Source: a virus. From it: DNA of 26,229 bases. Below, piece by piece: positions 2,811-10,244 of this stretch (position 1 is the stretch's first letter; each line of letters starts with the position of its first letter). The stretch is taken from positions 1-26,229 of IMG/VR virus record IMGVR_UViG_3300017987_000325. One strand, given 5' to 3'. The notes beneath the pieces are model-generated. The model worked only from the letters and a program-made list of their open reading frames with translations. It did no database searches and was not told where the DNA came from. Both the position numbers and the translations under genes were made by a program.

Positions 2811-3016
2811 GTATGTGTAGTATGATAGGGACAATAGAGACAATAAAGCTGGTGACGATTGAGCTCAACCGCGCCGACGTTTATAACATCCTTAATGGGG
2901 CTGACGTGAAGGGAAGGATGAAGGAGTATGTTAAGGACGATGGACGCCCTATAGATATTCTTATATATTGCAGCGACCCGGAGGACTCAGAGATTGTTAA
3001 TAGAAAAGAAGAGTAA
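2807..3016 (+). CDS. Small hypothetical phage protein (69 aa)
   Basis: I do not recognise this protein. It begins at an ATG that overlaps the rusA stop (ATGA at 2807-2810), so translation is probably coupled to rusA. The sequence is mixed, slightly acidic and predicted soluble, with no cysteine pair, membrane segment or repeat. A segment around residues 17-60 (VTIELNRADVYNILNGADVK, then a DILIYCS strand) alternates like a small alpha/beta protein. Its last 23 bases overlap the next gene. Codon use looks like its neighbours. It is kept as a gene because the reading frames tile without gaps through this early region. Confidence 0.6.
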   Translation: MSMCSMIGTIETIKLVTIELNRADVYNILNGADVKGRMKEYVKDDGRPIDILIYCSDPEDSEIVNRKEE

Positions 3017-5608: not shown

Positions 5609-6890
5609 AGACTATCAGCTGCCCTTTTTTCAGGCGATGGATAGGGGACTAAAGCGTGCTGTTCTTGTGTTTCACAGACGTGCAGGAAAAGATTTAATAT
5701 GCTGGAACTACATGATACGCGAGGCGGCTTGTTCGCGTGTTGGGACATATTGCTATTTCTTCCCAACTTCCAGGCTGGGGCGCCGTATCTTATGGGATGG
5801 TTTCAACAAAGATGGCAAGCGTTTCATCGACTACATCCCCAAGGAGGCCATCAAAGGGCAGCCTAACAGTGTAGAAATGAAGATAGAATTGCGCAACGGC
5901 TCTGTTATCCAGATAATGGGCACTGACCAAATCCTCAACGTCGGCATCAACCCCGTTGGGTGTGTTTTCTCCGAGTTCTCGTTACAAGATCCGAGAAGTT
6001 GGGACTTTATCCGACCTATACTCCGAGAGAACGGGGGGTGGGCAGTCTTCAACTTCACCCCTAGAGGTAAGAATCACGCTTACCACCTGTATATGATGGC
6101 GAAGGATAACCCTGAGTGGTTCTGCCAGCGCCTGACCATTGAAGACACCGGCGTTCTCTCTGCCGAAGATATGGAGACAGAGCGTCGGGAGGGAATGTCC
6201 GAACATCTAATCCAACAGGAATACTATACCAACTTCGACCAGGGTGTCGAGGGAGCTTTTTACGCTAAACTACTAACGACAGCAGAAAATGAGGGGAGAA
6301 TAGGCAATGTTCCGTATGATCCACATGCTCTTGTGCAAACGGCATGGGACCTCGGTGTGGCGGATAGTACGGCTATCATATTCTATCAAAACGTTGGTAA
6401 CGAAATCCATATCATCGACACCTACAGTGCAGAGGGTGAAGGTATCGACCATTATGCCCGCATTTTACAACAAAAGGCTGAAGCTGGAGGATGGAAGTAC
6501 GGCAGGCATATAGCCCCACATGATATACAGGTTAGAGAACTAGGCTCTGGGGCACAGACGCGTCTACAGATAGCCCGTAATCTTGGGATTTCGTTCGAAA
6601 TTTGCCCAAACATTTCCATCATCGACGGCATTGAGCATGTGAGGGGGGTCTTCCCGCGCTTGTGGATTGACAGGGAAAAATGCCTATATTTCATTAGGTG
6701 CGTTGAGAATTACCACAAAACGTTCAACGAACGCCTCAACGTGTATAGCGACAAACCTTGCCACGACTGGAGTTCTCACATAAACGATGCGTTACGCTAC
6801 CTTAGTGTCTCGCAAAACAGGATGCTCACGGAGCGTATGACTGAAAAAGAGGCCTTAGACCTAGAGCAGATGTATGCTAAGCGATGGTGA
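5559..6890 (+). CDS. Terminase large subunit (packaging ATPase/nuclease)
   Basis: This 443-residue protein has both terminase domains. The ATPase has a Walker A of VFHRRAGKD type at about 37-45, a Walker B region GCVFSEFS at 134-141 and a coupling motif FNFTPRG at 164-170. The RNase H-like nuclease has WDLGVADST at 263-271, an HDI at 321-323 and HINDALRY at 407-414, giving the expected metal-binding acids. TerL cuts concatemeric DNA and pumps it into the head through the portal. In Walker B the residue before the catalytic Glu is Ser rather than the common Asp, seen in some phage terminases. The ATG at 5559 lies inside the small-subunit gene and lacks a strong ribosome site; translation is probably coupled. 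Its end overlaps the methyltransferase gene. Confidence 0.93.
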   Translation: MTPEPSKTVKIPCFSPRDYQLPFFQAMDRGLKRAVLVFHRRAGKDLICWNYMIREAACSRVGTYCYFFPTSRLGRRILWDGFNKDGKRFIDYIPKEAIKGQPNSVEMKIELRNGSVIQIMGTDQILNVGINPVGCVFSEFSLQDPRSWDFIRPILRENGGWAVFNFTPRGKNHAYHLYMMAKDNPEWFCQRLTIEDTGVLSAEDMETERREGMSEHLIQQEYYTNFDQGVEGAFYAKLLTTAENEGRIGNVPYDPHALVQTAWDLGVADSTAIIFYQNVGNEIHIIDTYSAEGEGIDHYARILQQKAEAGGWKYGRHIAPHDIQVRELGSGAQTRLQIARNLGISFEICPNISIIDGIEHVRGVFPRLWIDREKCLYFIRCVENYHKTFNERLNVYSDKPCHDWSSHINDALRYLSVSQNRMLTERMTEKEALDLEQMYAKRW

Positions 6891-8031
6891 CAGTTTTTTT
6901 TCTTCTGAGTTTGATGGAATAACCGACAATTTGCTTATATATGGTGAAAATCTTCATGCCTTGAGGATTCTTGAGGATGACTATGCCGAAAAGGTTCGTT
7001 GTATATACATCGACCCGCCCTACAATACCAAAAGTCGCTTCACCCATTACGACGACAGCATGGAATCCTCCGTGTGGCTCAATATGATGAAAGAACGGAT
7101 TGAGATCTTAAGAAAACTACTTAGGGATGATGGGATAATTTTTGTATCGATTGATGATTCAGAAGATGCGTATTTGAAAGTGCTAATGGATGATATTTTT
7201 GGCCGAAAAAATTTTTGCGGTCGCTTTGTCTGGGAAAAAAAGAAAAAACCATCATTTCTTAGTTCGAGTATGGGAGTTGTTACGGAGTACATCCTCTCAT
7301 ATTCCAAAAACAGAAAATTATCGCCCTCTTTTTTAGGGGGACATACAACTGAAAATAAAAGGTACCCTTTAAATAATTCGGGCAACAATCTCAGCATTTT
7401 AAAATTTCCTGCTAATAGGATTAGATTTCATTGTGAAGATCAAACGCTCGAACCGCAAGACATGTCTTCTGAAAACATCATTACCAGGTTGTTAGACCGT
7501 GTTGTTATTAGAAACGGAATCAATGTCAATTCATTTTCTCTCGAAGGAGAATGGAGATATTCTCAAAGAAAGCTAGACGAAATCATTTCAAACGGAGAGA
7601 TTGTTACGATAAGCAAATTACCTTTTAGACCAAACCATATTAAACAAGGAAACAAACCCAAAAAAATCAGAAATCTTCTGTCAAGATCGATCGAAATACC
7701 AACATATGAAGACGCAACCCAAGAAAGCAGGCTTCTATTTGGATCTACAAAAGCCTTTGACTATCCTAAGCCGGAAAAACTAATCTACACTTTAATCAAT
7801 GCCGTAACAGAACCTGGCGACATTGTTCTAGACTGCTTTGCGGGATCGGGAACTACTGGAGCAGTAGCCCACAAGATGGGCAGGCGATGGATTATGATCG
7901 AAATGGGCGATCATGCCGTCACCCATATTATTCCTCGTCTGCAGATGGTTATCGATGGCACAGACTCGGGCGGTGTGACAGCATCAACAGGATGGCAGGG
8001 TGGAGGAGGTTTTTTTTTAATAAAGAATTAA
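6874..8031 (+). CDS. Adenine-type DNA methyltransferase, type III Mod-like, orphan
   Basis: Motif IV, IYIDPPYNTK, lies at 44-53 and motif I, CFAGSGTTGA, at 321-330. This order (DPPY before FxGxG) marks the beta class that includes type III Mod subunits. GENLHALRIL at 24-33 and the near-terminal WQGGGGF also match Mod proteins. At 385 residues it is shorter than a typical Mod (about 550-650), mainly in the target-recognition region (about 120-290) and at the end, which stops just after the GGGGF. No Res gene is near. It starts inside terL (ATG 6874) and its stop falls just after a T9 run. A T8 run sits at 6894-6901. The likely role is N6-adenine methylation of phage DNA. The region around 7200-7700 is clearly more A+T rich than the terminase genes, suggesting acquired DNA. 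Confidence 0.85.
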   Translation: MLSDGDSFFSSEFDGITDNLLIYGENLHALRILEDDYAEKVRCIYIDPPYNTKSRFTHYDDSMESSVWLNMMKERIEILRKLLRDDGIIFVSIDDSEDAYLKVLMDDIFGRKNFCGRFVWEKKKKPSFLSSSMGVVTEYILSYSKNRKLSPSFLGGHTTENKRYPLNNSGNNLSILKFPANRIRFHCEDQTLEPQDMSSENIITRLLDRVVIRNGINVNSFSLEGEWRYSQRKLDEIISNGEIVTISKLPFRPNHIKQGNKPKKIRNLLSRSIEIPTYEDATQESRLLFGSTKAFDYPKPEKLIYTLINAVTEPGDIVLDCFAGSGTTGAVAHKMGRRWIMIEMGDHAVTHIIPRLQMVIDGTDSGGVTASTGWQGGGGFFLIKN

Positions 8032-8080
8032 TACAACATGTTGCAGTGTAAATCACTACATGTTGTAGTATAGGTAAAAT
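8032..8080 (+). promoter_or_regulatory. Palindromic operator-like sites and weak promoter before the portal
   Basis: A near-perfect 14-base palindrome (8032-8045, TACAACATGTTGCA) is followed by a second palindrome at 8055-8069 with arms ACTACA and TGTAGT around TGT. The two also pair with each other as a hairpin with a TAAAT loop (8049-8053). A -10-like TAAAAT lies at 8075-8080, without a clear -35, so the second palindrome would sit at about the -35 to -15 position. This looks like a regulated late promoter; that is inference. Confidence 0.4.
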
Positions 8081-8086
8081 ATAAGT

Positions 8087-8155
8087 GCGCCTTTTGGCGC
8101 GATGTCGGGCTGATCACCCTTACCACTCTACTAAGTGGGCATCGCTTCTTTTCTT
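8087..8155 (+). ncRNA. Candidate structured RNA leader before the portal gene
   Basis: A perfect GCGCC-TTTT-GGCGC hairpin lies at 8087-8100. Overlapping its end, GCGATG (8099-8104) pairs with CATCGC (8140-8145). That stem closes over two smaller hairpins: GGG/CCC at 8107-8119 and CCACT/AGTGG at 8123-8138, giving a three-way junction. A T-rich stretch (8146-8155) follows. The two folds compete for 8099-8100, as in an attenuator or switch. It is not a tRNA. Base pairing is visible; any function is guesswork. Confidence 0.35.
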
Positions 8156-8189
8156 ATAGTAGTAAGAAAAACCACAAAGAAAGAGAGCT

Positions 8190-10244
8190 ATGCCTAAAGA
8201 CTCCGATCGCGAAATCATAGAACAATTCAACGACTCCTACAAAGAGGCGTTCGAACATTGGAACTCGTTCTTCCCGGAAGCGGAGAAGGACCTCGACATG
8301 TTCCTTGGCAATCAATGGTCTCTCGCAGAGAAGAACGCTCTAGCGCAAGAAGGCAGAAATGCTTTCGTCTTCAACAGGGTCAAACCTGTCATCAACCTCA
8401 TCACGGGATATCAACGACAACATCGTTTATCTTCTGTAGTTGTCCCGGTGGAAGATTCCGACCAAAAGACCGCAGATCAATTGTCCCAAGTCATGACCCA
8501 TGTTATGTCATATGGAGATGGCTATCATCTTATCAGTGACTGCTTCGGTGGGGCATGCAAGACAGGGTGGAACCTTGCGTCGGTATGGCTCGACTTTAGA
8601 GAAGATCCAGTCAATGGCGATATACGGTTTAATCGGGAACCGTGGAACAGTTTCATATTGGACCCTTACTTTACCAAGATGGACCTGTCGGACTGCTCTT
8701 ATATCTTAAGACGGAAATATCTTCCGGCCGACGTCGTAGCTTCACTTCTCCCCAACAAAGAAAAAGAGATATATCTGCTGCAAAAGCTTGGGAACGAAAA
8801 AGACGACAAGTTCTCGTGGATGCCCTACCAGCGTAACTCTGGGACGAACCTTCTTGCGTATAGTGAATACTATAGGGTGGGTTGGGAAGATGAAAAGATT
8901 CTCGTCGACATGGAGACAGGCATATGGCGTAAATGGGACGCCCCCAAAGAGATGTTCGATGTTTTGAAAGAGCTCAACCCCTCTTTTGAGCTGACCAAAA
9001 GACAAAAGCGTTATGTAGAGCGTAACGTCATCGTCAATGGGCAGGTGATGGCTACAGACAAAAACCCCGACGGCCTAGACTGTTACCCATTTGTTCCTTT
9101 CATTGGAATCTTCGAGCCTGAGAGCGACGACTACACGTTGAAGATACAGTCTCTTGTTCGTGCTATGCGCGACCCTCAGCGTGAGGCTAACAGACGTCGC
9201 AGCCAGATGATAGATTTGTTAGATAGCCAGATAAACTCTGGTTGGATTGCAACCGAAGGATCGGTCATCAATCCCAGGAGCCTATTCCAAGCTTCTCAGG
9301 GCAAGGTCATTTGGCGCAACCAAGATGCTCAGCCTGGCGCTATAGAGAAGATACAGCCAGCACAGATACCTCCTTCGATGTTCCAGTTGCAGCAGCAGTT
9401 CGATGCCGACGTCAAAGAAATCGCAGGGGTCAACGACGCTGCCTTCGGGGTCATGGAGTCGGGCAACGAGAGTGGCATCATGACGATGCTACGGCAGGGG
9501 GCTGCTCTCACGAACTTACAAGATGTTTTCGATAATTTAAGGTTTTCGCAGAAACATCTGTCTATGCTTGTTCTTAAGCTTATCCAGACGTGGACGCCAC
9601 AAAAAATCCAGCGCATTATCAACGAAGAGCCTACCCAAGAGTTCTACGACCAAGAATTTACCAAATACGACTGTGCTGTCCAAGAAGGTCTTCTCACGGA
9701 GACACAACGACAGGCCTTTTTCAGGCAGCTCCTTGACCTTAAGCAGCTTGGAGAGCCTATCCCTCCGATGTTGCTGGCTAAGGCAGCGCCTATTCAGGGC
9801 AAGTCTGAATACTATGAAGAGATGGAGCAATTCCAGCAGCAGCAGGCACAGGCACAGCAGTCGCAGTCTCAAGCGGAGCAAGAGCTTATTCAGGCACAGA
9901 AAGACCTCGCGATGTCTCAGTCGTTGTTGCAGGTGGCTGGTGCTAAAGAAAGGTTTACGCGTAGTGTCGCTAACATGGGTCTGGAGACAGAACGCAATTC
10001 CCAAGCAGTGGAAAATCGCACTGACGCCGTCCTCAACCATGTTAAGACTGTCAAAGAGCTTGAGCAGATGGACTTATCTACTGCTAAAGAAGAGTTGGCT
10101 CTCGCACAGATGCTGCGGGAGATGTCTAAGGCGGAAGAAGAAGACCTCGAGAAACATAATATTAGCACTTCTGAAAGTTCAGTGCTAACGGGTCAACAGG
10201 CTGCGCCGATATCTAATGATTCAGGGGGGATTGCACCAGAATGA
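8190..10244 (+). CDS. Portal protein, P22-like
   Basis: This 684-residue protein forms the dodecameric ring through which DNA enters and leaves the head. Its opening (about 1-75) has the DREIIEQFNDSYKEAFEHWN helix, FLGNQW and FNRVKPVINLITGYQR, which I recognise from P22-type portals. VRAMRDPQREANRRRSQMID and VNDAAFGVMESGNESGIMTM follow in the middle. The last third is helical and rich in Gln and Glu (EQFQQQQAQAQQ near 550), likely the barrel or coiled-coil tail; P22's portal is similar in length. It is set apart from the terminase by the methyltransferase and a regulatory gap. The site before the ATG is a weak purine run (AAAGAGAG). The last 52 bases are also the antisense end of an HNH gene. 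Confidence 0.9.
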   Translation: MPKDSDREIIEQFNDSYKEAFEHWNSFFPEAEKDLDMFLGNQWSLAEKNALAQEGRNAFVFNRVKPVINLITGYQRQHRLSSVVVPVEDSDQKTADQLSQVMTHVMSYGDGYHLISDCFGGACKTGWNLASVWLDFREDPVNGDIRFNREPWNSFILDPYFTKMDLSDCSYILRRKYLPADVVASLLPNKEKEIYLLQKLGNEKDDKFSWMPYQRNSGTNLLAYSEYYRVGWEDEKILVDMETGIWRKWDAPKEMFDVLKELNPSFELTKRQKRYVERNVIVNGQVMATDKNPDGLDCYPFVPFIGIFEPESDDYTLKIQSLVRAMRDPQREANRRRSQMIDLLDSQINSGWIATEGSVINPRSLFQASQGKVIWRNQDAQPGAIEKIQPAQIPPSMFQLQQQFDADVKEIAGVNDAAFGVMESGNESGIMTMLRQGAALTNLQDVFDNLRFSQKHLSMLVLKLIQTWTPQKIQRIINEEPTQEFYDQEFTKYDCAVQEGLLTETQRQAFFRQLLDLKQLGEPIPPMLLAKAAPIQGKSEYYEEMEQFQQQQAQAQQSQSQAEQELIQAQKDLAMSQSLLQVAGAKERFTRSVANMGLETERNSQAVENRTDAVLNHVKTVKELEQMDLSTAKEELALAQMLREMSKAEEEDLEKHNISTSESSVLTGQQAAPISNDSGGIAPE
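10162..10188 (-). terminator. Inverted repeat, possible terminator of the minus-strand HNH gene
   Basis: A perfect 8-base inverted repeat, TTAGCACT (10162-10169) and AGTGCTAA (10181-10188), with an 11-base loop, lies 4 bases after the HNH stop on the minus strand and is followed there by a weak T-rich stretch. It lies inside portal codons, so it may be coincidental or selected. Confidence 0.35.

Follow-up and report, generated by a model that had tools for sequence, protein, structure and literature searches.

A conserved junction RNA upstream of the portal gene in phages probably infecting Chlamydiota: a candidate bistable and probably dimerising mRNA leader

The phi29 pRNA is built from a three-way junction with complementary loops, the translational riboswitches for cobalamin and purines bring together a loop–loop contact and an alternative pairing that hides the ribosome-binding site, and the dimerisation site hairpin of HIV-1 exposes a palindrome of 6 nt that is flanked on either side by unpaired bases within a loop of 9 nt. 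The RNA dealt with here, referred to below as the portal RNA, lies upstream of the portal gene in the window, i.e. the whole stretch of 26,229 nucleotides of the IMG/VR virus record IMGVR_UViG_3300017987_000325, and resembles each of these in part. With pRNA it shares the three-way junction and the complementary loops, whereas it overlaps a gene start, accompanies a terminase of the general TerL type and has no Rfam match, the Rfam searches of the window and of 16 loci having found no covariance match to the phi29 pRNA family. Like the riboswitches, it exhibits a loop–loop contact and a predicted start-hiding pairing, but it has neither a conserved ligand pocket nor an Rfam match and carries a palindromic, putatively dimerising loop. 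The loop layout of the HIV-1 hairpin recurs in those members with the palindrome TAATTA (6 nt in a 9-nt loop), the two being unrelated, whereas most members have a 7-nt loop with a palindrome of 4–6 nt. OLE, ROOL and GOLLD, the latter two from phages or prophages, are described as homo-oligomers with symmetric kissing loops (PMC12286853); they are far longer, and an mRNA-leader role is not described in the accessible part of that study. Symmetric contacts between pairs of molecules were supported there by palindrome switching, the palindromic tetranucleotide of OLE L9.3 changing from GGCC to GAUC or AGCU and being taken as support for an intermolecular contact. The portal RNA, in comparison, measures about 75–110 nt, precedes a gene start and bears a putative start-site switch, its dimerisation being a prediction only. 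Among the literature matches listed, no title or abstract start describes an RNA before a portal gene and no title concerns tailed phages of Chlamydiota; the word "portal" is absent from the accessible main text of two structured-RNA surveys (PMC2864571 and PMC8040213).

All the structures in the original prediction were found, on reading the sequence, in the gap between a DNA methyltransferase gene (6874–8031; Pfam N6_N4_Mtase) and the portal gene (8190–10244, + strand; Pfam P22_portal, 2.7e-88; PHROG portal, 1.9e-84), the latter presumably being the controlled gene. The two palindromes described there do exist at 8033–8050 and 8055–8072, 22 bases apart, with arms that also pair with each other (8029–8041 with 8058–8070), and the -10-like AT stretch is visible by eye; no sigma-70-like promoter passed the promoter scan within this gap. 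These tandem palindrome-like sites (8033–8072, + strand), which also pair with each other as a hairpin and are perhaps operators, are located outside the conserved RNA. The segment 8029–8083, comprising the palindromes and then an AT-rich stretch, is changed but kept in the nearest relative, L001, and could be two operators ahead of a promoter.

The structured part, all on the + strand, starts with the hairpin P0 (8087–8100, GCGCC-TTTT-GGCGC), recognised from sequence and folding; it is the perfect GC hairpin of the original prediction, 8087–8091 pairing with 8096–8100, and its final GC doubles as the first GC of stem P1. By eye, several relatives have P0-like hairpins sharing the GC in the same way. 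The three-stem junction is exact as well. It is closed by P1, the 5' strand of which (X, 8099–8104) pairs with the 3' strand (Y, 8140–8145), as pair counts and partner swaps indicate, and it encloses HP-A and HP-B. HP-A (8107–8119, GGG-CTGATCA-CCC; stem 8107–8109/8117–8119) is defined by pair counts and palindrome types, its loop palindrome TGATCA (8111–8116) being the predicted homodimer kissing site. HP-B (8123–8138, CCACT-CTACTA-AGTGG; stem 8123–8127/8134–8138) is backed by pair counts and partner swaps. The T-rich run that had been listed as a separate feature proved to be the 5' arm of an 8-bp hairpin, HP-C (8149–8170, TTTTCTTA-TAGTAG-TAAGAAAA; stem 8149–8156/8163–8170), identified by sequence and pair counts, and it is not a terminator. 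The HP-C loop TAGTAG (8157–8162), which had been missed earlier, is exactly complementary to that of HP-B, CTACTA (8128–8133), with which it is predicted to kiss. The element does not end at 8155, as had been given, but extends to about 8194, through a region designated D-Z (8177–8194) that contains the ribosome-binding site and the portal start (ATG 8190–8192).

The segment 8032–8190 folds better than all of its 200 dinucleotide shuffles (-46.3 versus a mean of -33.8 kcal/mol; z -3.66). ARAGORN detected no tRNA in the window, Rfam gave 0 matches in the window at gathering scores, and a search of 16 loci against Rfam 15 with E up to 5 yielded 5 matches, none of them over the element; a tRNA-like or otherwise known RNA was rejected on these grounds, in agreement with the earlier remark that no known family came to mind.

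Relatives were collected from IMG/VR via the portal protein, 23 at first, after which two alignment searches with overlapping results supplied the best 80 of 157 in one case and of 230 in the other; reading upstream of their portals revealed the same fold in different letters. A covariance model (R1) built from six clean members gave 34 matches in 99 sources, and with a model rebuilt from these 34 copies (R2), 98 sources yielded 43 copies; one is truncated by a contig end and some are near-identical, leaving 38 distinct alignment rows. All 43 copies are on the portal strand and no further than 1 kb upstream of the portal gene, which most of them immediately precede; an ORF or about 0.3–0.9 kb intervenes in L005, L016, L073, L074 and L076. 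In L005 and L073, which are far apart on the portal tree, the RNA adjoins the start of the intervening ORF instead of that of the portal, the two ORFs (101 and 99 codons, respectively) looking alike by eye. The ORF of opposite orientation between RNA and portal in L016 (2041–2874, - strand) may encode a protein resembling HNH-type endonucleases.

It should be pointed out that the copy counts are taken from the covariance models, since a loose descriptor of kissing hairpins plus P1 matched 149 times on the two strands of 0.9 Mb, true matches being mixed with chance and reverse-complement ones. The model was further run on 38 additional sources—36 loci chosen for the HP-A motif, and thereby favouring the score, together with L205 and L208—among which a good score was obtained for L208 alone (8e-12), followed by an E of 0.096. 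The 17-base HP-A pattern itself occurs in 43 viral stretches, seven of them with the element, all on contigs already found by the portal search; inspection by eye revealed no matching HP-B and HP-C in the remaining 36. Portals of INPHARED phages are at most 25.3% identical among the matches listed, the one INPHARED region examined, from Burkholderia phage JC1 (L205), contains no element, and a DNA-level search in phages returned nothing useful. Among 20 whole records, none of the 15 chosen for having no element upstream of the portal had one anywhere, and each of the five positives had exactly one. The element is carried by 34 of the 77 loci with at least 190 bases upstream of the portal, and its distribution over the portal tree requires a minimum of 13 changes; judged from these two figures, phages gain or lose it easily. 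In L006, the region at about 2942–3005 upstream of the portal resembles, by eye, a remnant of the element from which the middle has been deleted.

Covariation in homologues, the test on which the original prediction had been staked beforehand, is strong. Over the 38 distinct rows, 25 of the 27 pairs, kissing loop included, have changed on both sides with 98.4% of the cells paired, and the covariation score of 0.699 compares with 0.230 after shuffling and with no more than 0.124 when the partners are slid; a smaller earlier set agrees. The count for the nested stems leans towards the model because these stems were part of the covariance model. The kissing helix was outside the model, and it is paired in 96.8% of cells with five of its six pairs changed on both sides. 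Swapping partners among elements leads to the same picture: P1 strands score 16.5 with their own partners and 8.9 with those of other elements, the kissing loops 14.1 and 6.0, each difference being reached in 0 of 10,000 permutations. Thirty-seven of the 43 elements entered these tests, L085 (cut by the contig end) and identical copies having been dropped; the permutations leave relatedness in place, and the control pairings mentioned below share it. The conserved fold—P1, HP-A and HP-B as a three-way junction, HP-C next to it and the six-base loops of HP-B and HP-C complementary and covarying—is, on this comparative evidence, virtually certain, and the stretch 8099–8170 of the window belongs, by its sequence, to a structured RNA that has no Rfam match. 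The loops of HP-B and HP-C are, as their covariation indicates, paired, in cis or in trans.

The same data bear on whether the feature might act at the level of DNA, as a cruciform or as a packaging or recombination site. The palindromes nearby would suit such a role; the kissing loops, the G-U pairs on one strand, the single orientation of all 43 copies and the overlap with the start codon speak against it to the extent that we regard it as scarcely conceivable. The relevant count on the mRNA strand is 36 G-U cells to three A-C cells, most of these pairs being model-fitted.

Besides this fold, a second one is present in the family. The P1 3' strand Y can pair as well with segment Z, which surrounds the ribosome-binding site and the start codon; strand D, located just 3' of HP-C, likewise offers a second partner to the HP-C loop. 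Across 37 elements, Y scores 16.1 with its own Z and 12.2 with swapped ones, and the HP-C loop 10.6 with its own D and 7.3 with swapped ones (0 of 10,000 in both cases); of six control pairings, five were not raised and one, the HP-C loop with Z, was slightly raised (334 of 10,000). When folded, both pairings join as one long rod, Y and the 5' half of HP-C against D and Z, the duplex energy of which is -20.1 kcal/mol with own and -13.5 kcal/mol with swapped partners in the 37 elements, and -20.4 versus -13.6 kcal/mol in 22 hand-picked representatives (0 of 10,000 each). Because close relatives share partners, the own rod partner ranks first, ahead of every other, in just 7 of 37 elements and 8 of 22 representatives. 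Start codons were chosen by script, none being found for L123. In nested energies, which do not credit the kissing helix, the rod lies below the P1 fold in 30 of 35 scorable elements by a median of 3.1 kcal/mol, two of the 37 elements without a scorable helix having been left out; since that lead leaves out the kissing helix of the other fold, the two folds may, by these computed energies, be near in energy. Family-wide, therefore, there are two mutually exclusive conserved pairings, one of them covering the start site, which points to a translational switch, with Y common to both states according to partner swaps and rod energies. It should be noted that this is weak in the window: its own rod, 8138–8155 against D-Z, is 78% complementary and, at -11.5 kcal/mol, falls short in stability of the mean for swapped partners (-13.5), the P1 form being the predicted minimum. 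A convincing rod is also absent in L001 (-11.6), L126 (-6.5) and L182 (-3.7).

With regard to the "switch or attenuator" proposed originally, it is thus the switch-like competition of stems that stands. The GC hairpin and P1 do share both bases at 8099–8100, where the competition had been placed, but it is not mainly there that the conserved competition lies: P1 competes with the pairing of the start-codon region. A transcription attenuator was rejected: no intrinsic terminator or attenuator, i.e. a GC hairpin directly followed by a T run, is found on the + strand in 7000–9500, and the T-rich stretch is a hairpin arm, for which reasons control of translation initiation is the preferred reading of the two.

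A junction and a loop–loop contact beside a start-site switch resemble, in outline, the purine and cobalamin riboswitches, so that a small-molecule riboswitch with a translational expression platform was also considered. The only conserved unpaired positions are the letters of the HP-A loop and one C, however, leaving no junction core fit for a ligand pocket, and with no Rfam match either, this explanation appears very improbable. A conserved catalytic core or an Rfam match of a self-cleaving ribozyme is likewise absent, and both the ribozyme and the ligand pocket were set aside for want of a conserved core.

The HP-A loop stands out by its symmetry. All 42 complete loops contain a self-complementary tetranucleotide—GATC in 35, AATT in four and AGCT in three—the AATT loops also holding TTAA and one AGCT loop also CTAG, and the type has changed five times on a tree of 60 selected portals (obtained by a quick method, with 16 of 57 inner branches open). 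As a 4-nt palindrome is expected somewhere in a 7-nt loop in roughly one case in four by count, a single palindrome may well arise by chance in so short a loop; this and the fact that 35 of the 42 are GATC mean that the weight rests on the five changes of type. A palindrome that is retained in every loop while switching among three types argues for a symmetric kissing loop, and a homodimer contact is the likeliest role of HP-A, one that we consider fairly probable. Mimicry of an anticodon loop (7-nt loop with U at position 2) was set aside for HP-A, without being disproved, because the AATT members have 9-nt loops.

A leader bound by a phage protein could account for part of these observations. 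The portal, terminase or scaffold protein would bind the junction or HP-A and repress or free portal translation, the palindrome forming part of a symmetric protein site; T4 gp32, acting on its own mRNA (PMC535899, accessible in part), provides the model. The position at one structural gene, the scarcity of conserved unpaired bases besides the HP-A loop and the two-state pairing at the start site would all agree with it, but the palindrome letters change (GATC, AATT, AGCT), which a base-reading protein would hardly tolerate, and we hold this explanation to be unlikely.

The loop symmetry would equally suit a trans-acting, oligomerising phage RNA that serves the packaging motor, pRNA-like by convergence, through HP-A palindromes and intermolecular HP-B/HP-C kissing. 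The RNA is indeed located between the packaging genes and the portal, its symmetric loop covariation is as in OLE, and the complementarity of HP-B and HP-C is indistinguishable from an intermolecular contact. This possibility is nevertheless quite improbable given that the fold overlaps the portal start and ribosome-binding site, no + strand terminator follows in the window, no Rfam pRNA match exists and the large terminase, by its match to phrog_2 (4.5e-17), is of the general TerL family.

Based on the pairings described, it appears rather likely that the element is a leader of the portal mRNA, bistable and probably dimerising, that would gate portal translation; the fold is near certain, whereas the switch and the dimer we infer. 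The form with P1 and the kissing loops would leave the start site free (ON), and the rod would hide the ribosome-binding site and start codon (OFF). ON would form during transcription, because X, HP-A and HP-B are made first, with OFF able to invade later. The balance might be set by the joining of two transcripts via HP-A, or by a phage protein, and setting it would limit the portal relative to the capsid protein. The portal is present in 12 copies per virion. A further idea, which we regard as tentative and rather doubtful, is that the leader counts its own transcripts in Chlamydiota phages: abundant portal mRNA would lead to HP-A dimers, possibly with an exchange of HP-B/HP-C, shifting the balance between open fold and rod, so that RNA dimerisation by itself would determine how much portal is made, no protein or ligand being involved. 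Should the leader model hold, a virion gene gated by a dimerising mRNA leader would be realised here in a compact, natural form, and the element would illustrate one way in which a phage could hold its portal at low numbers. The support from sequence is unusually large, comprising covariation in four helices, a kissing loop, a palindrome for self-contact and, as an alternative structure, the rod, and the element is small enough for full testing in vitro.

The hosts of these phages are probably Chlamydiota, and the RNA marks a little-known group of tailed phages apparently tied to this phylum. A first pattern scan of species genomes found no relative, and a second one found a single relative, in a Chlamydiae MAG, the fetched stretch of which is without the element. 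In the phylum of that MAG, the portal occurs in 11 of 232 genomes, from which it follows that the pattern scans had missed most portal carriers, and the RNA in two under strict filters. The host link is given as probable and not firmer, since bins may be contaminated and only this phylum was searched in this way. In one of these two Chlamydiota genomes, on a contig of 125 kb, the region L208:8484–9534 contains the RNA, an N-terminal portal fragment and, by eye, transposase-like ORFs, with an integrase-core ORF 4 kb away and genes having ordinary bacterial Pfam matches on both sides; it is a remnant of such a phage.

Other elements have also been seen in these phages. A second structured RNA candidate is located upstream of the portal in phages where the main element was not found (L099:2033–2100, L112:1313–1402, L114:1239–1325, L115:588–657, L117:2514–2598, L118:2854–2940, L127:2668–2737 and L129:2844–2940); it has conserved GGGAATC and CTAG and a closing stem GAGGG/CCCTC, and 7 of its 15 predicted pairs have changed on both sides among the eight sequences, the similar-looking L111:638 having been left out. 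In L078, L082, L099, L110, L114, L134 and others, a hairpin whose 5' side contains GAACCAC precedes ACACGYGAGG, at most 230 bases upstream of the portal. In phages without the junction, GAGG is found a few bases before the portal start and resembles a ribosome-binding site; in those with the junction, the P1 5' strand is formed by GCGAGG. At L116:6786–6980 and 7783–7878, two weak matches to group I introns were seen (27.1 and 32.5 bits, below the gathering threshold of 50). Finally, an operator-like palindrome, TGTAAAGCNGCTTTACA, occurs with up to three mismatches at L003:2887, L016:1919, L070:2458, L079:5288, L091:518 and 5324, and elsewhere, in several phages just upstream of the RNA.
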